DNA of 64,000 nucleotides from Pseudazoarcus pumilus (GTDB lineage: Bacteria; Pseudomonadota; Gammaproteobacteria; Burkholderiales; Rhodocyclaceae). Where the stretch lies: the NCBI RefSeq assembly GCF_002872475.1, contig NZ_CP025682.1:2294001-2358000 (forward strand), given 5' to 3'. Made by a program: the position numbers and the translations under genes. Positions 7,816 through 24,439 of the stretch are shown here, piece by piece; the first letter of the stretch is position 1, and each line of letters opens with the position of its first letter. The notes below the pieces were generated by a model. The model was given only the letters and a program-made list of their open reading frames with translations. It did not search any database and was not told where the DNA came from.

Positions 7816-7832
7816 CCGACACGTCGCGCCGC

Positions 7833-7865
7833 AAAAAAAAGCCACGGCATGCCGTGGCTTTTTTT
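7833..7865. terminator. Bidirectional terminator between convergent genes
   Basis: A GCCACGG/CCGTGGC stem at 7841-7857 is flanked by eight A on the left and seven T on the right, so it works in both directions. It separates the aminotransferase (+) from icd (-). Confidence 0.85.
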
Positions 7866-7918
7866 CGTCCGCCGGACAGCCCGCCTGGCGCGCCTTGCGC
7901 CAGGACGGGGTGGGCGCC

Positions 7919-10162
<2,244 letters not shown>

Positions 10163-10604: not shown

Positions 10605-12326
10605 TCAGGCCAGACCCGGATTGCCTTCCATGCCCTTGAGCCTGGGCATGTTGATGTCGACCTGACGAATCGTCTTGCGATCGCGCAGGTGGCGCGCCAC
10701 GACTTCCCAGATCGGCGGACCGGAATCGCGCGCCGCTTCCTGCACCGGCGCCCAGCCGGCGACCTTGTAGATCTTGTTCGGATCGATGGGCTTGCCACCC
10801 AGCATCATGTCGCTGATGCGCCCGCCCATGTCGGCCATCGGGTCGCAGGCATATTCGAGACCGCCCACGCGCACCATGTCGCCGCCCTGCTGGTAGTACG
10901 GATCGGGGTTGAAGATGTTGTCGCACACATCCTCGAGCACGGTCTTGATCATCTCGCCGCTCATCTCGCTGACCGTGGTCCACGGATAGGTGATCGCCGT
11001 CTGGTCCATCAGGTGTTCCATCGTGATGGTGTCGCCCGGCAGCAGCGACGTGCCCCAGCGGAAACCCGGCGAGAAGGCGATCTCGGCGTCGAGTTCGGCG
11101 ATCATCGCGTCGACCAGCAGCTGGTCCCAGGAGCCGTTGAAGTTGCCGCGACGGTAGAGCAGGCCTTCGGTGACGGCCAGCGGCTCGGCGAGCTTGTCGA
11201 GGAAGGGTGCGCGCACCTTGTCGATCAGGGCCTGCATCTCGGGGTCGGCCGGCAGCAGGTTGGAAAACACCGGCAGCAGCTTGTAGCGGAAATCGCGCAC
11301 CTTGCCGTCACGCACGTCGAAGTCCATCACGCCGAGGAACTTGCCGTTGGAACCGGCGTTGGTCACCAGGGTCTTGCCGCCGGCGTTCTCGACCACGGTC
11401 GGGGCCGGCACGCCGTCGTGCGTGTGGCCGCCGAAGATGGCGTCGATGCCGGTCACGCGGCTGGCCATCTTGAGATCCACGTCCATGCCGTTGTGCGACA
11501 GCAGCACGACCACCTGCGCCCCCTCGGCGCGCGCCGCATCCACGGTCTCCTGCATCTCGCGGTCGCGGATGCCGAAGGTCCAGTCCGGCGTGAGCCAGCG
11601 CGGGTTGGCCACCGGCGTGTAGGGGAAGGCCTGGCCCACGATGGCGACCTTCACGCCATTGATGTTGCGCATCACGTAAGGCTTGAAGACCGGATCTTCG
11701 AAGTCGGTGGTCTTGACGTTCTGCGCAACGATGTCGACGTGACCGACGAAGTCCTTCTCTTCGATCTCCTTGACCCGATCCGCGCCCAGGGTGCTTTCCC
11801 AGTGTAGCGTCATGACGTCGACGCCGAGCAGCTTGCAGGCGTCGACCATGTCCTGGCCGTCGGTCCACAGCGCGGTGGCCGAACCCTGCCAGGTGTCGCC
11901 ACCGTCGAGCAGCAACGCACCGGGGCGGCTGGCCTTCATGCGCTTGACCAGGGTGGAAAGATGCGCGAAGCCGCCGACCTTGCCGTAGGTACGGGCCGCT
12001 TCGGTGAAATTCAGATAGGTGAAGGCGTGCGCCTCGATGCTGCCGGGCTGGTAGCCGAAATGCTTGAGCAGCGCATCGCCCACCAGGTGCGGCGGCTGGC
12101 CACGCATGCCGGCCACGCCGAGGTTCACGTTCGGTTCGCGGAAATAGATCGGCACCAGTTGCGCGTGGCAGTCGGTCATGTGCAGCAGGCTGACGTTGCC
12201 GAAGGGCGGCAGGTCGTACAGCGCCTCGGCCGATTTCGCGGCGCTGGCGAAATCGCTCGAGAGCGTCATTCCGCCTGCCGCGGCGACCGCGAGGATCTGC
12301 ATGAATTCACGACGGTTCATCGACAT
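10605..12326 (-). CDS. soxB: SoxB thiosulfohydrolase
   Basis: A 573-aa periplasmic dimanganese enzyme of the Sox thiosulfate-oxidising complex. It hydrolyses the terminal sulfonate from SoxY-bound cysteine S-thiosulfonate, releasing sulfate. The N-terminus has a twin-arginine signal (NRREFMQ followed by a hydrophobic stretch). The 5'-nucleotidase-type metallophosphoesterase motifs are intact: [27 protein letters not shown] and GGHTHDG. The C-terminal nucleotidase-like domain is also present, and the length matches known SoxB. It is the last gene of the minus-strand operon, separated from soxX by an internal terminator, so its level may differ from the upstream genes. Confidence 0.96.
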
Positions 12327-12426: not shown

Positions 12427-13038
12427 TTACTTGTTGACCGGGGATTCCGGATCGAACAGATAGGCCATCACATGGCGGATCTGCTCCTCGGTGAGGATGC
12501 CGCCGTAGCCGTTGCGCGGCATGTCGCTGCACGCGTGATAGGCCTTGGCGTTGTAGATCTTGCCCCAGGTGTATTTGACGATCTCCTCGGAGCGGCCGCG
12601 GATCTTGGCGTAGCCCTGGAGGTTGACGCCGATCGTGCCGTAGGACATCTCGGCAGGATCGAGGCCGTGGCAGTTGTAGCAGCCGCCGCCGTTGGGCGCG
12701 TCGGGCTTGTCGCGCCAGGTCAGGCCACGACCGCTGAACGCGATCTTGTGCCCTTCCTTCCAGTCGCCGCCTTCCCAGTAGTCGCCGTTCGAAGGCCACT
12801 TGATGGTCTTCATCTCGGCCGCCTCGAGCTTCTTGCGCGTGGCATCGTCGAGCGTGTCCGGACTGGAGCACGCCTTCTGCACGGCATCCTGATCCATGCG
12901 GTCCATGGTCGCCTGACCGTTAGCCTTGAACGAGGACTGGATCATCTTCTCGAGCTTGGCGTCCATGTTTCCGTGCCCGTCGGCCAACGCAAGACCGGCG
13001 AACAGCGCCAGCGGAGCAATCATCAGCATCTTTTTCAT
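12427..13038 (-). CDS. soxX: SoxX cytochrome c subunit
   Basis: A 203-aa periplasmic monohaem cytochrome c that accepts electrons when SoxA couples thiosulfate to the SoxY cysteine. It has a Sec signal peptide (about residues 1-20), the haem site CYNCH at 120-124 and the probable distal Met at 173 in SDMPRNG. The roughly 100 residues before the haem make it longer than minimal SoxX proteins, as in SoxAX complexes with a monohaem SoxA. I start at the ATG at 13038, not the adjacent in-frame GTG, because GGAGG lies 7 nt upstream. It follows soxA by 13 bp. Confidence 0.93.
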   Translation of the reverse strand: MKKMLMIAPLALFAGLALADGHGNMDAKLEKMIQSSFKANGQATMDRMDQDAVQKACSSPDTLDDATRKKLEAAEMKTIKWPSNGDYWEGGDWKEGHKIAFSGRGLTWRDKPDAPNGGGCYNCHGLDPAEMSYGTIGVNLQGYAKIRGRSEEIVKYTWGKIYNAKAYHACSDMPRNGYGGILTEEQIRHVMAYLFDPESPVNK

Positions 13039-13051
13039 CACGTTTCCTCCC

Positions 13052-13858
13052 TTAGCGCTTGGCGGAGGGCGCTTTCATCGTGCCCCCGTTGGCCGTACCG
13101 GCCATATAGACCGACAGGGCGATGGTGACATCCGAACCGTAGATCGGCTCGGCCGTGCGCTGCTGGCGGAAGCAGTCCCACAAGCGATGCTGCATGGTCC
13201 AGAACTGCGAGTTGGACACGCGATAGGCCGGCCAGGAACCCCAGCCAGCCGCCGCGCCTTCGGCCGTGGTCAGGTTGGGCAGGTCCTGCATGCGGATACG
13301 CTTGCCGTCGACGGCGTGACAGGTCGAGCAGGCAAAGTCCATCGGACCGGCACGGTAGAAGAACATCTTCTCGCCGAGTTCGTACATCTCCTTCATCTTG
13401 GGATGATCGAGATTGACGTCGATGGTGTCGCCGCGCGACTGGCCGACCACGTAGGCCACGAGCTCGGCAACCTTGCCGCGCTCACCCTGGCGGAACTTGC
13501 CGTTGATGATTTCCTCGGACGGGATGCCCTGCAGGTTCTCGATACAGGTCATCAGACGCGATTCGAGATCCTGCACGCGCCCGGTGTCCTCGTAGTAGCG
13601 CGGCATTTGCGCGTACGCTCCCTCGACGACGCCTGGGCCGAGGCCCAGGTCGCACTTCTCGAGCGTGGCGTTCTTGGGACCGCGCGGCGTGACCCACAAC
13701 TCCTCGCCGGCCATTTCATACAGTTCGGCGGGGTTGCTGTCCTGCAGCATCTGACGATACTGCTCGAGCGCGGCTGCGGTGTTGTCCTGCGCTGCGACTC
13801 CGGACGACCCCCCAGCGATCGCGGCGGCGACCGCCGCTGTGACGATGCTTTTTTTCAT
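13052..13858 (-). CDS. soxA: SoxA cytochrome c subunit (monohaem form)
   Basis: A 268-aa periplasmic L-cysteine S-thiosulfotransferase subunit that, with SoxX, attaches thiosulfate to the SoxY carrier cysteine. It has a signal peptide (residues 1-23). Only one CxxCH haem site is present (C177-C180-H181). The active-site cysteine that becomes the haem ligand/persulfide is C229 in WDCFRQQR. Where dihaem SoxA proteins carry the N-terminal haem this protein has just C69 and C105, probably a disulfide. The ATG has a GGAGGAGA ribosome site. It lies between soxZ and soxX. Confidence 0.93.
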   Translation of the reverse strand: MKKSIVTAAVAAAIAGGSSGVAAQDNTAAALEQYRQMLQDSNPAELYEMAGEELWVTPRGPKNATLEKCDLGLGPGVVEGAYAQMPRYYEDTGRVQDLESRLMTCIENLQGIPSEEIINGKFRQGERGKVAELVAYVVGQSRGDTIDVNLDHPKMKEMYELGEKMFFYRAGPMDFACSTCHAVDGKRIRMQDLPNLTTAEGAAAGWGSWPAYRVSNSQFWTMQHRLWDCFRQQRTAEPIYGSDVTIALSVYMAGTANGGTMKAPSAKR

Positions 13859-13971
13859 TGTCTCTCCTCCGGGTTTCCTCTGGCTGGTAGTGCGCGATGC
13901 CGACACGACCGGGCTGAGCGGCGCTCGTCCGCGAGGACGAAGGCCGCGACCGGCCCGACGCCGGTCGGGCA

Positions 13972-14283
13972 TCAGCGGATCTGTACCTTGTCGGTACGCG
14001 ACTCGCCCTTGTTGTCCTTCCAACTCACCTCCACGGTGTCGCCGGAAGCGCCGCCCTTGAACTTGAACGACAGATACGGGTTGGTCGACACCGACGGCCC
14101 CATCTCGGCGTTCAGGACGGTCTTGTCGTTGTGCTTGGCGGTCAGTTCGGTGATGTAGTGGGCCGGGATCGGGTTGCCCGAGCCGTCCTTGCGCTGACCG
14201 GTTTCCATCGGGTGCGACATCAGCACGCGCACTTCGGTGACGCCGTCCGCCGTAGCGGCGCGAATTCGCATGGGTCCTGCCAT
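13972..14283 (-). CDS. soxZ: SoxZ sulfur-carrier subunit
   Basis: A 103-aa immunoglobulin-fold protein that dimerises with SoxY to form the sulfur-carrier complex of the periplasm. The VRVLMSHPMETGQRKD segment near residues 17-32 and the C-terminal basic strands match the family. It has no signal peptide; SoxZ is exported together with the Tat-signal-bearing SoxY. A GGAG site sits 8 nt before the ATG. It follows soxY by 30 bp. Confidence 0.95.
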   Translation of the reverse strand: MAGPMRIRAATADGVTEVRVLMSHPMETGQRKDGSGNPIPAHYITELTAKHNDKTVLNAEMGPSVSTNPYLSFKFKGGASGDTVEVSWKDNKGESRTDKVQIR

Positions 14284-14313: not shown

Positions 14314-14778
14314 TCAGCCGCCGCAGCCGCCGAGCGTGACCTTGATTTCCTTCTTGTTCATGTAGTACTTGTCGCCCGCCTTGACGACGGCGTAGACGTC
14401 CGATGTCTGGCCCATCTTGATGCGGGTCTGCACTTCGCCCATGGTGCCATCGGGCAGCATGAAGTTGGCCGCGACCATGTTCGGGTTCTTCTCGACCATG
14501 ATCGAGACCGACTCGGTGCCCGGAATGTTGCTCAACACGCCCACCGGCACGACCGCGCCGTTCTCGGCGATGTCGGGCGCGATGAGTTGCACGTCGTCGC
14601 TCATTTCCGGCTTGGCCGCACCCATGGCGGTGAGCGCCTCGTCGATGGTCTTTGCGTCGAACACTCGCTGATCCCGCGCCAGCGCGGTACCAGGCTTGAC
14701 CAGGCCGGCCGCCACGAGCATGCCGAAGATTCCCAGTCCGCCCCCGGTCTTGAGGGCACCCCTGCGTTGATGATTCAT
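14314..14778 (-). CDS. soxY: SoxY sulfur-carrier subunit
   Basis: A 154-aa carrier protein whose C-terminal cysteine holds the sulfur intermediates through the Sox cycle. The protein ends in GGCGG (residues 150-154), the conserved swinging arm with the carrier Cys. The N-terminus has an RR-containing Tat-like signal (QRRGALKTGG followed by a hydrophobic stretch). The ATG at 14778 has GGAGAG upstream. It lies between soxD and soxZ and should be exported as a complex with SoxZ. Confidence 0.95.
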   Translation of the reverse strand: MNHQRRGALKTGGGLGIFGMLVAAGLVKPGTALARDQRVFDAKTIDEALTAMGAAKPEMSDDVQLIAPDIAENGAVVPVGVLSNIPGTESVSIMVEKNPNMVAANFMLPDGTMGEVQTRIKMGQTSDVYAVVKAGDKYYMNKKEIKVTLGGCGG

Positions 14779-14804: not shown

Positions 14805-15869
14805 TCACTGCGCTTTCGCGCCTTGCTGAATCCACCTGACGAGCAGTTCGACATCCTCGTCCGACAGGTGGCCTTGCGGCGGCATCGGAACATTGCCCCA
14901 GACACCAAAACCGCCTTTTCGAATCTTCTCCGCAAGATATTCGCCGATGTCGGCCTTGTCGCGGTACTTGTTTTCGATCTCGGCAAAGCTCGGGCCGACG
15001 ATCTTGTTGTTGAGCCCGTGACAGGCCGTACAACCGTTCTCCTTGGCCGCGGCATGGCCCGCTTGCGCCTCGCTCGGTGCCTTGCTCGCGTCGTCGGCTG
15101 CCGGCTCCACAGTCTGCTGGCCACGCACCGCCCCGACCACACGGTTCTGGTCGGCGAGGTTGCCGTGGGCGTCGCGTGCGTGTTCGGGCAGGGCCGACAC
15201 CAGTTCGACTTCATCCTTGCAGTTACTCATGCAGGCGACGTTTTGTACATCAGGGATTCCCCCGTTGCCCATGCCTCCGGCCGATGCCGGCGCGCCCGGC
15301 CACATGCCGTGATCGGTGGTCATGCCGTTGCGGTTGGGCATGCGCTCCTGCACTTCGCGGATGGTCTGCTCGTTGAGTTCATAGTCGTAAGGGACGACTT
15401 CGGCCAGATTGAGCATGTAGGCGAGCAGCGCATACACGTCGTCATCGGACAGCGACTTGGGACTGGTCCAGGGCATGGCGCGACGGATGTAGTCGAACAG
15501 CGTGGCCACCGTCGGCACCTTCATCATCGTCGTACGCTGTGGGAAACCGCCCTCGGCCAGCGCACGCACGCGACCGGTCTCGATGTCCTCCTTGGTGGTG
15601 CCACCGACCAGCGGCGTGAACACCTCGTTGGACTCGCCGAAGATGCCGTGACAGGAGGCGCACTGCTCTTCCCACAGGATTTCGCCGTCGGCGGCCGTGC
15701 CCTTGCCGGCGGGCAGACCCTTGAAGTCGGGCCGCACGTCGATGTCCCAGGCCTCGACCTCGGCGGGCGTGGCCTCGCGACCGATGCCCGTATAGTCGCC
15801 GAAAGCTGCGGCCGACCCCGCAGCGAACACCAGCGCCGCCGCGATGAGCGTCTTAGAGTACTTGGACAT
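14805..15869 (-). CDS. soxD: SoxD dihaem cytochrome c
   Basis: A 354-aa periplasmic dihaem cytochrome that takes electrons from the SoxC molybdenum centre during oxidation of the SoxY-bound sulfane sulfur. It has a signal peptide (MSKYSKTLIAAALVF...), a first haem site CASCH in the N-terminal third, an acidic linker with a Cys pair (ACMSNC), and a second haem site CTACH near the C-terminus with a later Met ligand candidate in NVPMPPQG. I start at MSKYSK, which has GAGG upstream; this overlaps the soxC end by 17 nt. Having soxCD means thiosulfate can go fully to sulfate without sulfur globules. Confidence 0.93.
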   Translation of the reverse strand: MSKYSKTLIAAALVFAAGSAAAFGDYTGIGREATPAEVEAWDIDVRPDFKGLPAGKGTAADGEILWEEQCASCHGIFGESNEVFTPLVGGTTKEDIETGRVRALAEGGFPQRTTMMKVPTVATLFDYIRRAMPWTSPKSLSDDDVYALLAYMLNLAEVVPYDYELNEQTIREVQERMPNRNGMTTDHGMWPGAPASAGGMGNGGIPDVQNVACMSNCKDEVELVSALPEHARDAHGNLADQNRVVGAVRGQQTVEPAADDASKAPSEAQAGHAAAKENGCTACHGLNNKIVGPSFAEIENKYRDKADIGEYLAEKIRKGGFGVWGNVPMPPQGHLSDEDVELLVRWIQQGAKAQ

Positions 15870-17190
15870 TGCCCACCTCACCGGATTCCGCAACCTTCCA
15901 CGACTGGATGGCGTTGTTGTGATAGATCGAGGACGTGCCGCGCACCTTGCGCAGTTGCCCGTAGGACGGCTGCACGTAGCCGGTCTCGTCGACCGCGCGT
16001 GACTGCAGGATGTAGGGCTTGCCGTCCCACACCCAGTCGCAGTTGAAGCGGGTCAGCGCCTTGGGCAGCACCGGCCCCTCCAGACGCGCCGGCATCCAGT
16101 TGATGCCGCCGTCGACCGAGACGTCGACGCGCGTGATCTTGCCGCGGCCCGACCACGCCAGACCGGTGATGTTGTGGAAACCCTTGTCGAGCAGCAGCTG
16201 ACCGCCGGACGGGCTGGTGATCACCGACTTGCACTCCTGGATCGACGTGTACTGACGATGCACACCGTCGGGCATCATGTCGATGTAGTGCACCGCCTCG
16301 TCCTTGGCGCCCCACGGCTGATCACCGACCTCGATGCGGCGCAGCCACTTGACCCAGCTCACGCCCTGCACGCCCGGCACCACCAGGCGCAGCGGATAGC
16401 CGTTCTCGGGACGCAGCATCTCGCCGTTCATGCCGTAGGCCACCAGCACCTCGCCGGACTCGACCATTTCCATCGGGATGGTGCGCGTCATCGACGAGCC
16501 GTCCGCGCCCTCGGCGAGGATGTAGCGACCCTTCTTGTAGTCTGCGCCGCACATGTCGAGGATGAGCTTGAGCGGCACGCCGGTGAATTCAGAACAGGAC
16601 AGCATGCCGTGGCTGTACTGCACCGTCGGCACCGCCACGTTGCCCCACTCCATGCCGGTGTTGGCGCCGCACTCGATGAAGTGGATGCGCGAAACCGAGG
16701 GCAGACGCATCAGGTCGTCCATGGTGTAGACCGCCTCGGTCTTGACCAGGCCGTTGATCATCAGGCGGTGACGGTTGGGATCGACGTCGTGCCAACCCTG
16801 GTGATGGCGCTCGAAGTGCAGGCCGGAGGGCGTGATCATGCCGAACAGGCCCTGCAGCGGCGTGAAGCTCACCGACGAGCCGGGCACGCGGGTCAGGCCC
16901 GGGCTCTGGCGACGCACCAGGCCGCGCTCGAATTGCGAGGGCATGCCGTAGGGGTTGGCGGCCACCGGCTGACCCAGCGTGGTGGACCACTCGGGCAGTT
17001 CGAGAATGGCCGGATCGCCCTTGGGCGAGGCGGCGAAGGCCGCCGGCGCGGCAACCGCGGCGCCGGCCGCGGCAAAGGCCTTGCGCAGGAAGCCGCGACG
17101 CCCCGCGGCGACCGCGCGGATATCGTCTTGCGACAGAAAGTTCTCCGGCGCCGGGCGGATGCGCCCAAACCGGGTTTCAGGGGTGGTCAT
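15853..17190 (-). CDS. soxC: SoxC sulfane dehydrogenase, molybdenum subunit
   Basis: A 445-aa periplasmic molybdopterin enzyme of the sulfite-oxidase fold that, with SoxD, oxidises the sulfane sulfur on SoxY. It has a Tat signal (RRGFLRKAF at about residues 31-39). The molybdenum-ligand cysteine lies in HFIECGANTGMEW, and the C-terminal Mo-co dimerisation domain is present (WSGRGKITRVDVSVDGG). The ATG has GGAG 8 nt upstream. It is the first structural gene after the regulator, 33 bp downstream of it. Confidence 0.95.
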   Translation of the reverse strand: MTTPETRFGRIRPAPENFLSQDDIRAVAAGRRGFLRKAFAAAGAAVAAPAAFAASPKGDPAILELPEWSTTLGQPVAANPYGMPSQFERGLVRRQSPGLTRVPGSSVSFTPLQGLFGMITPSGLHFERHHQGWHDVDPNRHRLMINGLVKTEAVYTMDDLMRLPSVSRIHFIECGANTGMEWGNVAVPTVQYSHGMLSCSEFTGVPLKLILDMCGADYKKGRYILAEGADGSSMTRTIPMEMVESGEVLVAYGMNGEMLRPENGYPLRLVVPGVQGVSWVKWLRRIEVGDQPWGAKDEAVHYIDMMPDGVHRQYTSIQECKSVITSPSGGQLLLDKGFHNITGLAWSGRGKITRVDVSVDGGINWMPARLEGPVLPKALTRFNCDWVWDGKPYILQSRAVDETGYVQPSYGQLRKVRGTSSIYHNNAIQSWKVAESGEVGNVQVL

Positions 17191-17223: not shown

Positions 17224-17583
17224 TCACACGGCCTTGCCGTTGAGTTCCTTTTCCAGCCGCTCGAACGAAGCGCGTTGCGGCTGGTTCATGTCGGCACGCG
17301 CGGCGATGGTCACGCACACGGTGCGGCACATGTCCTTGAAGTTCGGATCGACGATGCGGTAGAAGACCTGGCTGCCCTCGCGCCGACGATCGACGATGCC
17401 TGCGCGGTAGAGCATGTTCAGGTGGCGCGAGGTGTTGGCCTGCGTCAGCCCGGACTTGTCGACGATCTCGCTGACCGGCAACTCGACCTCGCACAGCGCG
17501 TGCAGGATGCGCAGTCTCGCCGGCTCGGCGAGCAGGCCGAAGTAGTCGGCCACGCTTTCGAAAACCTTGCTCAGCTCATCCAT
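17224..17583 (-). CDS. ArsR-family regulator of the sox genes (SoxR/BigR-like)
   Basis: A 119-aa winged-helix protein of the ArsR/SmtB family. The recognition helix region is GLTQANTSRHLNMLYRAGIV (about 46-65) and the wing RRREGSQVFYRI follows. Cysteines C31, C86 and C90 fall where the sulfane-sulfur sensors of the BigR/SqrR/SoxR group carry their two redox cysteines (one in the helix before the HTH, one in the C-terminal helix), so polysulfide-responsive repression is a reasonable inference. It heads the sox operon behind a promoter whose spacer is covered by a palindrome, which suggests autoregulation. The start was chosen at MDELSKVF, where ArsR similarity begins; longer starts would extend into the promoter. 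Confidence 0.85.
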   Translation of the reverse strand: MDELSKVFESVADYFGLLAEPARLRILHALCEVELPVSEIVDKSGLTQANTSRHLNMLYRAGIVDRRREGSQVFYRIVDPNFKDMCRTVCVTIAARADMNQPQRASFERLEKELNGKAV

Positions 17584-17616
17584 ACTGTTTATCCGCTCAT
17601 GGCATCCGTTTATTCG

Positions 17617-17645
17617 ACTATATGAGCATGTGCGCATATGGTCAA
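17617..17645 (-). promoter_or_regulatory. sox operon promoter with overlapping operator palindrome
   Basis: On the minus strand TTGACC (17640-17645), a 17-bp spacer and TATAGT (17617-17622) form a near-consensus sigma-70 promoter ending 34 bp before the regulator ATG. The palindrome ATATGAGCA-TG-TGCGCATAT (17620-17639; 8 of 9 positions symmetric) fills the spacer and part of the -10. Binding there would block RNA polymerase. Two GTTTAT(C/T)CG direct repeats lie just downstream (17587-17595 and 17608-17616). Confidence 0.75.
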
Positions 17646-17700
17646 ATAAAAATTTAGCCTGTTTCATCCCGAACGCAACACTGGCGACGTTCCGGCGCGC

Positions 17701-17728
17701 TTGGTAGCCGGGAACAAACCGCTGTAAT
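17701..17728 (+). promoter_or_regulatory. Candidate promoter of fccAB
   Basis: TTGGTA (17701-17706), a 16-bp spacer and TGTAAT (17723-17728) lie about 90 bp before the fccA start, diverging from the sox promoter. Confidence 0.4.
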
Positions 17729-17819
17729 CTCACGACAGGGCGCCCAGAACGCCCGACCGGGAGCGCCGGCGGCACACCTCGCGGCGGCTCGCCCAGAATT
17801 GCTAAAGAGGAGACGGACC

Positions 17820-18119
17820 GTGAAACCACATCATCTGATCGCTGCCTTCTGCCTGGCCGGCTTCGCCGGTCTCGCAGCGGCGGAATACCCCAACGCGGCG
17901 CGCGACCTGGCCGCCACCTGTGCCAACTGCCACGGCACCAATGGCGAAAGTGCAGGCGGATCGGATTCGCTCGCCGGTGTGCCGGCCGACAACATCCTCC
18001 AGAAACTCGAGGAGTTCCGCGCAGGCGACCGGCCGGCGACGATCATGCATCAGATCGCCAAGGGCTATACCGATGAACAACTCAAGCTGGTCGCGGACTG
18101 GTTCGCGGCCCGCAAGTGA
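17820..18119 (+). CDS. fccA: Monohaem cytochrome c, FCSD cytochrome subunit
   Basis: A 99-aa class I cytochrome c with a signal peptide (residues 1-21), one haem site CANCH and a candidate Met ligand in TIMHQIAKGY. Its position directly before a flavocytochrome c sulfide dehydrogenase flavoprotein makes it the electron-accepting subunit. It corresponds to monohaem FccA/SoxE rather than the dihaem form of purple sulfur bacteria. The start is GTG with a GAGGAGA ribosome site; an upstream in-frame TTG lacks one. The flavoprotein start lies 17 bp after the stop. Confidence 0.85.
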   Translation: MKPHHLIAAFCLAGFAGLAAAEYPNAARDLAATCANCHGTNGESAGGSDSLAGVPADNILQKLEEFRAGDRPATIMHQIAKGYTDEQLKLVADWFAARK

Positions 18120-18136: not shown

Positions 18137-19483
18137 ATGCCAAGCAGACGCGATTTCCTGAAGGGTACCGGCGCATTCGCCGCCGGCAGTGCCATCCTCG
18201 GCCCCGCCCATGCCAGCGACGTCACCCAGCGAGCCATCGAGGCCGGCAAGGAGTTGATGCGTGAATTCGGCGTGACCGACAAGACCGATCGCAAGGACCG
18301 CAAGCCGGCCCATGTGGTGGTGGTCGGCGGCGGCTTCGGCGGCGCCACCGCAGCCAAGTACATCCGCATGTGGAGCGACGGCACGGTCAAGGTCACACTG
18401 GTCGAGCGCAATGCGCAGTTCGTCTCTTGCCCGATCTCCAACCTGGTGATCGGCGGCGTCAAGAACATCGAGGACATCTCCGCCGGCTACGACAACCTGC
18501 AGAAGCAGTGGGGCATCGAGGTCATCACCGATTCGGTCATCGGCATCGACCCGAACACCCGCGAGATCCGCCTGGCGCGCGGCGATACGCTCAAGTACGA
18601 CCGCGCCGTGCTGTCCCCGGGCGTGGACTTCATGCCCGACATGGTGGAGGGCCTGACCGGTAACGAACACCTCGTGCCGCACGCCTGGAAGGCCGGCGCA
18701 CAGACCGTGCTGCTGCGCAGCCAGCTCGAAACCATGCCCGACGGCGGCGTCTACGCCATGCACATCCCGCTCGCGCCCTTCCGCTGCCCGCCGGGCCCCT
18801 ACGAGCGTGCCAGCCTCATCGCCAACTACTTCAAGCAGCACAAGCCCAAGTCCAAGGTGCTGATCCTCGACAGCAACCCGGACATCCAGTCCAAGAAGGG
18901 ACTGTTCACCAAGGCCTGGGAAGCGAACTACCCCGGCATGATCGAATATCGCGCGAACAGCCGGCTGATGGCGGTCGACGCGGCCACGCGCACGGCCGAA
19001 CTCGAGTTCTCGACGGTCAAGGCCGACGTGCTCAACGTCGTGCCGCCGATGCGCGCCGGACGACTGGTCGATTTCCTCGGCGTGGACCTGGCCAACGATC
19101 GCTGGGTCGAGGTCAATTTCCAGACGCTGGAGGTCAAGGGCGTACCGGGCGTGCATGTGCTCGGCGACGCCACGCTGTCGGCACCGGGCATGCCCAAGTC
19201 CGGCCACATGGCCAACCAGCACGCCAAGGTCGCGGCTGCGGCCATCGTCGAGATGCTTGCCGGCCGTTCGCCCAACCCGACGCCGGTGGTGATGAACACC
19301 TGCTACAGCTTCACCGACGAGAAGACCGGCATCCACGTCGCCTCCGTGCACCAGTGGGACAACGAGAAACGCACGCTGCTGCCGGTCCAGGGCGCGGGCG
19401 GCATCTCGGCGGCAGGCAGTTCGCTGGAGGGGCGGCATGCGCTCAACTGGGCGCGCAACATCTGGGCCGACATGCTCACTTGA
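18137..19483 (+). CDS. fccB: Flavocytochrome c sulfide dehydrogenase, flavoprotein
   Basis: A 448-aa periplasmic FAD enzyme that oxidises sulfide to sulfane sulfur and passes electrons to its cytochrome partner. It has a Tat signal (SRRDFLKGTG), the FAD-binding GGGFGGATAAKYI at about residues 62-74, a conserved Cys in FVSCPISN, and the pair expected to form the redox disulfide near the flavin: the Cys of RCPPGPYER and the Cys of NTCYSF. The C-terminal FCSD domain is complete. The ATG follows a GGGGGGAG site. The same protein is called SoxF in some sox clusters. A terminator follows. Confidence 0.94.
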   Translation: MPSRRDFLKGTGAFAAGSAILGPAHASDVTQRAIEAGKELMREFGVTDKTDRKDRKPAHVVVVGGGFGGATAAKYIRMWSDGTVKVTLVERNAQFVSCPISNLVIGGVKNIEDISAGYDNLQKQWGIEVITDSVIGIDPNTREIRLARGDTLKYDRAVLSPGVDFMPDMVEGLTGNEHLVPHAWKAGAQTVLLRSQLETMPDGGVYAMHIPLAPFRCPPGPYERASLIANYFKQHKPKSKVLILDSNPDIQSKKGLFTKAWEANYPGMIEYRANSRLMAVDAATRTAELEFSTVKADVLNVVPPMRAGRLVDFLGVDLANDRWVEVNFQTLEVKGVPGVHVLGDATLSAPGMPKSGHMANQHAKVAAAAIVEMLAGRSPNPTPVVMNTCYSFTDEKTGIHVASVHQWDNEKRTLLPVQGAGGISAAGSSLEGRHALNWARNIWADMLT

Positions 19484-23443: not shown

Positions 23444-24439
23444 ATGTGTGTGGTGGGAATCGATATTGCCGCCAAGAGTTTCGATCTGGTCGTACGCCGC
23501 AACGGCACCAATGCCAAGGTGCGCCGCTTTGAGCAAACCCCTGCGGGCCACGCCCAGGCTGCGGCGCATCTGAAGAAGCTCGCGCCCGAGCGGGTGGTCA
23601 TGGAGGCGACCGGAGTGTATTTCGTGGATTTGGCTGTGGCCCTGCACGCGGCCGGCCTGCCGGTGAGCGTGATCAACCCGCGCAGCTTCAAGCACTTTGC
23701 CCAGATCAAACTCAAAGGCAGCAAGACCGATGCGATCGACGCGGCCTTGCTGGCCGAATACGCCCAGCGCATGGCGCCCGCGCTGTGGGTGCCGCCGGCG
23801 CCCGATCGGCTGGCCTTGCGCGATCTGGGCCGTCAAATCAACCGCCTGATCCACGCCCGCACCCAGGCCAAGAACCGCCTGCATGCGCTCCAGGCACGTC
23901 GAGACGTCTCCGCGCTACTGATCGACGATGAGCGCGAAGGCATCGAACAACTCGATGCGCGCATCGAGCGGCCCAAAGGCGCTGCGCAGCAACGCATCGA
24001 ACAGTGCGCGCAACTGTCGGTGATGGCCCAGCACCTGCGTTGTGCCAAAGGGCTCGGTGCGGCCAGCACGCTGGCGATCCTGGCTGAGTTGTGCGTGTTG
24101 CCCACGCAGATGAACAGCGCGCAGGTCAGCTGCTTTGCCGGACTGGACGTGCGCCTGAACCAGTCGGGTAGCAGCGTGCACAGGCCCGGGCGCCTGTCCA
24201 AGGCCGGGAACGCCTATCTGCGCGCAGCCCTGTTCATGCCGGCCATGGTCGCCGTGCAATCGGACCCCAACGCCAAGGCCTTCTACGAAGCCTTGCTCGC
24301 CCGCGGCAAAAAACGCATCCAGGCCTTGTGTGCGCTCATGCGAAAAATGCTCACCGGAATCTGGGCGTGCATCCGCAATGGAACCCCGTTCGATTCGAGC
24401 CGACTGTTCAGCTGCGCTCAGACTCTTTTAAAGGCTTGA
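23444..24439 (+). CDS. IS110-family transposase (bridge-RNA-guided recombinase)
   Basis: A 331-aa recombinase with the N-terminal RuvC-like DEDD domain and the C-terminal transposase_20 domain. The acidic residues are D7 (GIDIA), E54 (VVMEATG), D96 and D99 (KTDAIDA). The catalytic serine candidate is S241 in NQSGSS, followed by the conserved GRLSKAGNAYLR. Spacing and length agree with active IS110-group enzymes, and no frameshift or stop is seen. The ATG has GGAGGG 7 nt upstream. The element's non-coding RNA lies upstream of the gene, which marks the IS110 rather than the IS1111 subgroup. Confidence 0.95.
   Translation: MCVVGIDIAAKSFDLVVRRNGTNAKVRRFEQTPAGHAQAAAHLKKLAPERVVMEATGVYFVDLAVALHAAGLPVSVINPRSFKHFAQIKLKGSKTDAIDAALLAEYAQRMAPALWVPPAPDRLALRDLGRQINRLIHARTQAKNRLHALQARRDVSALLIDDEREGIEQLDARIERPKGAAQQRIEQCAQLSVMAQHLRCAKGLGAASTLAILAELCVLPTQMNSAQVSCFAGLDVRLNQSGSSVHRPGRLSKAGNAYLRAALFMPAMVAVQSDPNAKAFYEALLARGKKRIQALCALMRKMLTGIWACIRNGTPFDSSRLFSCAQTLLKA

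Follow-up and report, generated by a model that had tools for sequence, protein, structure and literature searches.

A predicted operator palindrome encloses the arsR–soxCDYZAXB promoter, and its ArsR-type regulator carries a displaced, plausibly sulfane-sulfur-sensing cysteine set

The locus lies in a 64,000-nucleotide stretch (the window) of the 3.2-Mb, single-contig genome of Pseudazoarcus pumilus. On the minus strand, the gene of a 119-residue ArsR/SmtB-type regulator with the cysteines C31, C86 and C90 (arsR, 17224..17583; named by domain, NCBIfam match and predicted fold) is followed by soxC, D, Y, Z, A, X and B. SoxC (15853..17190) starts 33 nt past arsR and scores 613 bits against TIGR04555, with a cut-off of 420. 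SoxD (14805..15893) has two cytochrome c domains and was named from these Pfam domains and synteny, while soxY (14314..14727; TIGR04488), soxZ (13972..14283; TIGR04490), soxX (12427..13041; TIGR04485) and soxB (10605..12326; TIGR04486) each lie above the cut-off of their model. SoxA (13052..13900, approximate start) was named by eye from its place between soxZ and soxX and the conserved order. In the opposite direction, on the plus strand, an fccA-like cytochrome c gene (17820..18119; Pfam Cytochrom_C above cut-off, name taken from its place before fccB) and fccB, encoding a flavocytochrome c sulfide dehydrogenase (18137..19483; Pfam FCSD_central and FCSD-flav_bind), diverge from arsR across an intergenic region of 236 nt. 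The closest named relative by regulator sequence is an Azoarcus-labelled MAG, 96% identical. Elsewhere in the window, an IS110-family transposase is located at 23444-24439, and a strong A/T-flanked hairpin, perhaps a two-way terminator, at 7830-7869.

In the region 17400-18000, the promoter scan finds a single sigma-70-like site, exactly the one proposed by the initial annotation: a -35 hexamer TTGACC (17640..17645) and a -10 hexamer TATAGT (17617..17622), both on the minus strand and separated by 17 nt, against a shuffle mean of 0.0. This whole promoter is enclosed by a 42-bp imperfect inverted repeat (17609..17650) with 20-nt arms and a 2-nt spacer, in which 17 of the 20 arm pairs are complementary. 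Dinucleotide shuffling of the 236-nt intergenic region, repeated 1000 times, never gives 17 arm pairs, the maximum being 15. Furthermore, among inverted repeats with 20-nt arms and spacers of 0-4 nt, the score of this repeat is the joint top of the 64-kb window, tied by two other places, including the hairpin at 7830-7869. A 20-bp palindrome had been described at 17620-17639; it is real, with eight of nine arm pairs, but forms only the core of the longer repeat. Similarly, the two reported GTTTAT(C/T)CG repeats are present on the plus strand: GTTTATCCG (17587..17595) just ahead of the arsR start, and GTTTATTCG (17608..17616), which itself makes up the outer end of the palindrome arm. Among 13 named relatives, both repeats recur only in L033, of the same genus.

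Inverted repeats can also fold as hairpins, and the palindrome might serve as a hairpin or terminator instead of binding a protein. Such a role is extremely unlikely in view of the loop of only 2 nt, the conserved place on the promoter and the scan of 17400-18000, in which no terminator-like site was found. Judged from its sequence, the shuffles and the core shared by the relatives, the 42-bp palindrome is instead the predicted operator of the adjacent ArsR-type regulator. Its central part, ACTATATGAGCA-TG-TGCGCATATGGT (17617..17642), which is also delimited by an alignment of 14 sites, forms a 12-2-12 inverted repeat at the promoter, the usual pattern of SmtB/ArsR operators at promoter elements according to the available part of PMC8790569.

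Among 160 pattern-matched stretches from a scan of named genomes, 13 are relatives. In all 13, arsR is followed by soxCDYZAXB in the same order, and the site is located upstream of arsR with unchanged spacing and with TTG(A/C) at the -35 position; divergent fccA and fccB are present in eight. A weight matrix was built from the 14 sites of the window and these relatives, 12 of them distinct. An order-wide sample of 399 genomes, overlapping in part with the organisms of the named set, yielded 73 regulator matches in 67 genomes at E 1e-20, and all 73 were fetched. A sox gene lies within the fetched stretch of 38 of them; five of these loci duplicate training sites, leaving 33 further sox-linked loci, some of which fall in training genera. 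At each locus, the best matrix score was compared with 200 first-order Markov simulations of the locus's own upstream region. The site exceeds all 200 simulations at 29 of the 33 loci, 27 of them at 18 bits or more; the weak passes are L080 (3.4 bits) and L068 (5.2 bits). By the same test no site is found at the other four, L082, L100, L105 and L106, where 53, 1, 175 and 1 of the 200 simulations, respectively, are as good.

Together with the five training repeats, 34 sox-linked sites beat all simulations, and TA opens the -10 in all 34, TA...T is present in 30 and TTGA stands at -35 in 23, counts that lean upward because the matrix itself favours such letters. At members lacking C31, TA stands at the start of the -10 in 5 of 28 best sites. 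In L075, L096 and L101 the TTGAC hexamer is gone, yet the ATATGC..GCATAT core is still symmetric; thus, the symmetry is not a mere by-product of the promoter. Specificity for sox is not a property of this operator type: all simulations are also beaten at 17 of the 28 members without C31, and no sox gene was fetched with any of the 28. In 13 of these 28, the best site is of the ATTTG type, a related operator. Seven members with C31 likewise lack a sox gene within the DNA fetched; two of these (L081 and L115) exceed all simulations and five show no site. At L042-L045, near 8875-8900, where the arsR frame starts, an in-frame ATG is located 8 nt past the -10, and the regulator has an N-terminal extension from there; the mRNA is possibly leaderless. 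Of these loci, L044 comes from a MAG labelled Bordetella parapertussis; since L042 (Burkholderiales bacterium LSUCC0115) and two other loci have a similar regulator and sox operon, the MAG may be misnamed.

The regulator could be an activator or lack an inducer, with the palindrome as its site and sox controlled elsewhere; according to the available text of PMC10509353, an inducer site is absent from some ArsR proteins, and HlyU regulates positively. The site is, however, centred between the -35 and the -10, where a dimer would block polymerase, and an activator or inducer-less regulator of this kind is very unlikely.

In the search for the same palindrome elsewhere in the genome, called for by the initial annotation, a 20-nt half-site pattern with up to three mismatches matches only its own two arms, and a backward-read control of the pattern gives one genome match. 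Across 16 regulator-bearing genomes, a 26-nt pattern (up to three mismatches) occurs in eight, at one place per genome and adjoining arsR; in the other eight the site has diverged or is absent, and the pattern finds nothing. An 18-base core (up to two mismatches) was searched in 11 regulator-bearing genomes and five without a regulator match at E 1e-20. It occurs at 11 places in nine of these 16 genomes, nine at arsR and two upstream of ccmA, and has no match in G409 and G099, both regulator-bearing, or in any of the five genomes without the regulator. The ccmA-upstream copies, one in each of the two genomes of the genus (G000:C1:92060-92079, or L052 1501-1520, and L161 1169-1188), have two mismatches and are flanked by a CBS-domain gene on one side and a ccmA-like gene on the other, the gene names being assigned by eye; no T-run follows the core. 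Since the two sites are orthologous, in a stretch 87.6% identical, they count once and remain a lead: cytochrome c maturation may belong to the regulon of the sox regulator in this genus.

The regulator matches the HTH_5 domain at 50.8 bits, with a curated cut-off of 22, which places it in the ArsR/SmtB family. The only NCBIfam model above its cut-off is 'metalloregulator ArsR/SmtB family'; against the BigR model NF040642 the regulator scores 53.8 bits, below the cut-off of 155, a cut-off that the genome's canonical BigR-type protein also misses, at 98.6. The predicted model (pLDDT 81.4) shows the order of helices and two strands of the ArsR/SmtB fold, alpha1-alpha4, wing and alpha5, and is weak past residue 90, with a mean pLDDT of 72 for residues 81-90 and 55 for residues 91-100. 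Among the matches listed in the fold search, the Z-scores are 14.5 for NolR with DNA, 13.9 for BigR, 13.8 for AntR, 13.3 for SqrR and 13.2-13.7 for HlyU, and the best PDB sequence match is Rv0081.

C31, C86 and C90 are numbered correctly in the initial annotation, which had them placed as in sulfane-sulfur sensors; this placement does not hold, because the sensor pair aligns to H28 and A94. The two other ArsR proteins of the genome, one BigR-type (L046) and one SqrR-type (L047), carry the canonical ILC...FC pair, and in the sequence alignment with them the canonical cysteines correspond to H28 and A94. In BigR, the sensing cysteines are residues 42 and 108. Gapless structural alignments superimpose residues 1-96 of the regulator on BigR 15-110 and residues 1-95 on Vibrio cholerae HlyU 11-105, so that BigR 42/108 and HlyU 38/104 fall on positions 28/94; alignments with SqrR contain small gaps and agree with 28/94 within about a residue. 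For HlyU, the available text of PMC10509353 gives the sensing pair as C38/C104 and once prints Cys101. Position 94 rests mainly on the sequence alignment, since the model is weak at residues 91-100. Thus, C31 is located three residues after the first canonical position, and C90 and C86 are located four and eight residues before the second.

This displaced set is shared by the relatives. None of the 73 has a cysteine at position 28 or 94, while C31 is present in 45, C86 in all 73 and C90 in 68. Every one of the 38 sox-linked members has C31 and C86, and 33 keep C90; the minimal conserved pair among these 38 is therefore C31/C86. The five exceptions (L060-L064), all from one genus (g62), bear Ser90 with C31 and C86 kept and form a natural experiment. 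As a guess, C31 and C90, each about one helix turn off the known pair, could meet if helices 2 and 5 run antiparallel. The BigR-type gene of the genome (G000:C1:1413435-1413707) lies beside a YeeE-like gene and a gene for a metallo-beta-lactamase-fold protein, and the SqrR-type gene (G000:C1:900224-900487) beside a rhodanese-like gene, as judged by eye. In addition, two sox-containing stretches encode another ArsR, which has the first of the canonical SqrR/BigR-type cysteines and FC near its end, at L045 4158-4559 (minus strand) and L143 9348-9692 (plus strand).

In a sample of 398 genomes of the phylum, the family was found in nine, all of the same order (E 1e-25). A quickly built, midpoint-rooted tree of 79 proteins, based on few columns, separates six SqrR/BigR-type proteins, among them the two of the present genome, as a clade (SH-aLRT 95). 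The 28 members without C31, together with L115, which has it, form a clade (SH-aLRT 96) nested among the C31 members, and, with the midpoint root, a supported branch places five C31 members (L103-L106 and L110) on the side of SqrR; the C31 set is therefore not one clean clade. The first idea, that C31 was added to an older CX3C, was dropped in view of this nesting, and loss of C31 in the branch lacking it may be as likely as gain or likelier, to judge from this tree. In this branch, C31 is replaced mostly by Arg, and the CX3C of helix 5 is retained. A sox gene is found near 38 of the 45 members with C31 versus none of the 28 without (Fisher p about 5e-14). Only two changes of C31 are needed on the tree, where an independent-pairs test has no power, so the association is not independent evidence; C31 was rejected as a marker of sox linkage and the p-value was not relied on. 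Furthermore, the fetched flanks range from about 1.5 kb (L053-L082) to up to about 4 kb (L096-L138), so that absence of sox is not equally tested across loci.

The neighbours of four loci without C31 were inspected. RND-type efflux genes, recognised by eye, are present in L112 and L113, and neither these nor sulfur genes were recognised among the neighbours in L111. In L109 (3078-5129), a regulator with Asn31 and the helix-5 CX3C is encoded between a metallo-beta-lactamase-fold protein and a TauE/SafE exporter, a neighbourhood that hints at sulfur sensing without C31.

These efflux genes, at two of the four loci, and the CX3C kept without C31 are part of the case for an operator-bound repressor that binds a metal, a metalloid or haem through the thiolates of C31, C86 and C90, with sox responding to this ligand. 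Three cysteines conserved in the regulator, the metalloregulator model as the sole NCBIfam match above cut-off, and a fold close to metal-sensing ArsR proteins and the antimony repressor AntR point the same way. Nevertheless, no metal transport gene was seen in the arsR–sox operon by Pfam and NCBIfam scans, a sox gene lies near most C31 members (38/45), and C90 is Ser in five sox-linked members. In addition, helix 3 of the regulator contains no cysteine, hence no CXC of the main metal/metalloid cluster. On balance, a thiolate site of this kind is unlikely. A search for an AntR-like site from one member without C31 covered its first 70 residues, short of helix 5, and a literature search for an AntR-like metalloid site found no paper with Cys103.

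Similarly improbable is a general redox switch, in which a simple disulfide formed under oxidation, or the oxygen status, would make sox follow the respiratory state and not sulfane sulfur. It draws on the match to Rv0081, which according to the available part of PMC10509353 belongs to a hypoxia-related ArsR cluster that is for the most part uncharacterised, and on the SoxR of Hyphomicrobium, which can form a disulfide as well, according to the accessible text of PMC10451225; the linkage of the regulator to sox and in part to fcc speaks against it.

The sox linkage makes sulfane sulfur the most likely signal, as does the release of alphaproteobacterial SoxR, a sox repressor, by sulfane sulfur or polysulfide, which is described in the available part of PMC10451225. 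Of the earlier repressor reading, the repressor site on the arsR–sox promoter is supported by the conservation of site, register and gene order, as far as sequence comparison can indicate, but the sensor-like placement of the cysteines is not. Since the palindrome fits the 12-2-12 pattern of ArsR/SmtB operators, the regulator most likely acts as a local autorepressor of sox, and perhaps of the divergent fccAB too. The site, its promoter register, the synteny and the conservation of site and cysteines are observed directly, and from them we infer the following mechanism. A bound dimer would span the -35, the spacer and the -10 and shut out RNA polymerase; with the dimer across the promoter, arsR and soxCDYZAXB, presumably co-transcribed, would be repressed together, and the divergent fccAB would possibly be affected as well. 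During oxidation of reduced sulfur, sulfane sulfur would reach the cytoplasm and modify the dithiol formed by C31, just after helix 2, and C86 in helix 5, probably helped by C90; a C31-C86 bridge may result. The modified dimer would change its shape and release the DNA. Altogether, an operator-bound repressor of arsR–soxCDYZAXB, released by sulfane sulfur through the C31-C86 dithiol, is the reading we consider probable, and sensing through the displaced cysteine set is plausible. Only tentatively can it be proposed that sulfane-sulfur sensing by the sox repressors of this order follows a route of its own, in an ArsR lineage outside SqrR/BigR with a displaced C31-C86(-C90) dithiol.

If displaced-cysteine sensing is true, there would be more than one way for the same ArsR fold to carry sulfane-sulfur chemistry, a family present in many genomes of the order would escape annotation that relies on the SqrR/BigR pair, and the sox operons of the order would gain a defined operator and a sharp mutational test. 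A literature search, with subscription papers mostly outside its scope, found no title or opening of an abstract describing this regulator group, and no discussion of the cysteines of this order's members was found in the available text of PMC10451225. The SoxR of Cupriavidus metallidurans (PMC2864759) was considered as a counterpart and rejected, being, by the available part of that paper, the MerR-type oxidative-stress SoxR.

Compared with known systems, the regulator resembles SoxR of Hyphomicrobium denitrificans, Paracoccus and Pseudaminobacter, which are likewise ArsR-type, encoded with sox and presumed repressors of sox. The linkage to SoxYZ and/or catalytic Sox genes, by which the available text of PMC10451225 recognises SoxR, is found here and at all 13 named loci. 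In the same text, sox-linked soxR is reported only in Proteobacteria, with Burkholderiaceae named among the Sox families, and the SoxR systems have repeats in the intergenic promoter regions, as here. Elsewhere, soxR occurs in a soxSRT arrangement with a YeeE-like SoxT (available part of PMC11582611); unlike this arrangement, the three YeeE-like (Sulf_transp) matches of the present genome all lie outside the window. As in SmtB/ArsR operators described in PMC8790569, the site has 12-nt arms and a 2-nt spacer at promoter elements; in contrast to other such operators, its core is ATATGCGCA-NN-TGCGCATAT, and that of relatives without C31 is often of the ATTTG type (13/28).

The sensor site also differs. 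According to the available part of PMC10451225, SoxR of H. denitrificans (Cys50/Cys116) and P. salicylatoxidans share the SqrR/BigR cysteine pair; the present regulator instead has His28 and Ala94, compared through the BigR positions that the same source equates with Cys50/Cys116. All known ArsR persulfide sensors belong to one sequence cluster, characterised by a single pair of cysteines located in helices 2 and 5, as the available part of PMC10509353 presents them; that pair of SqrR, BigR and HlyU (cluster 4) is replaced here by H28 and A94, and the regulator shares 27 and 30% identity with the BigR- and SqrR-type proteins of the genome. An ordinary operator architecture is combined with a possibly new sensor-site variant in the sox regulators of this order: as in BigR, SqrR and HlyU, the same fold carries a cysteine in or close to helix 2 and cysteine in helix 5, but, unlike in these proteins, the cysteines are shifted by +3 and -4/-8.
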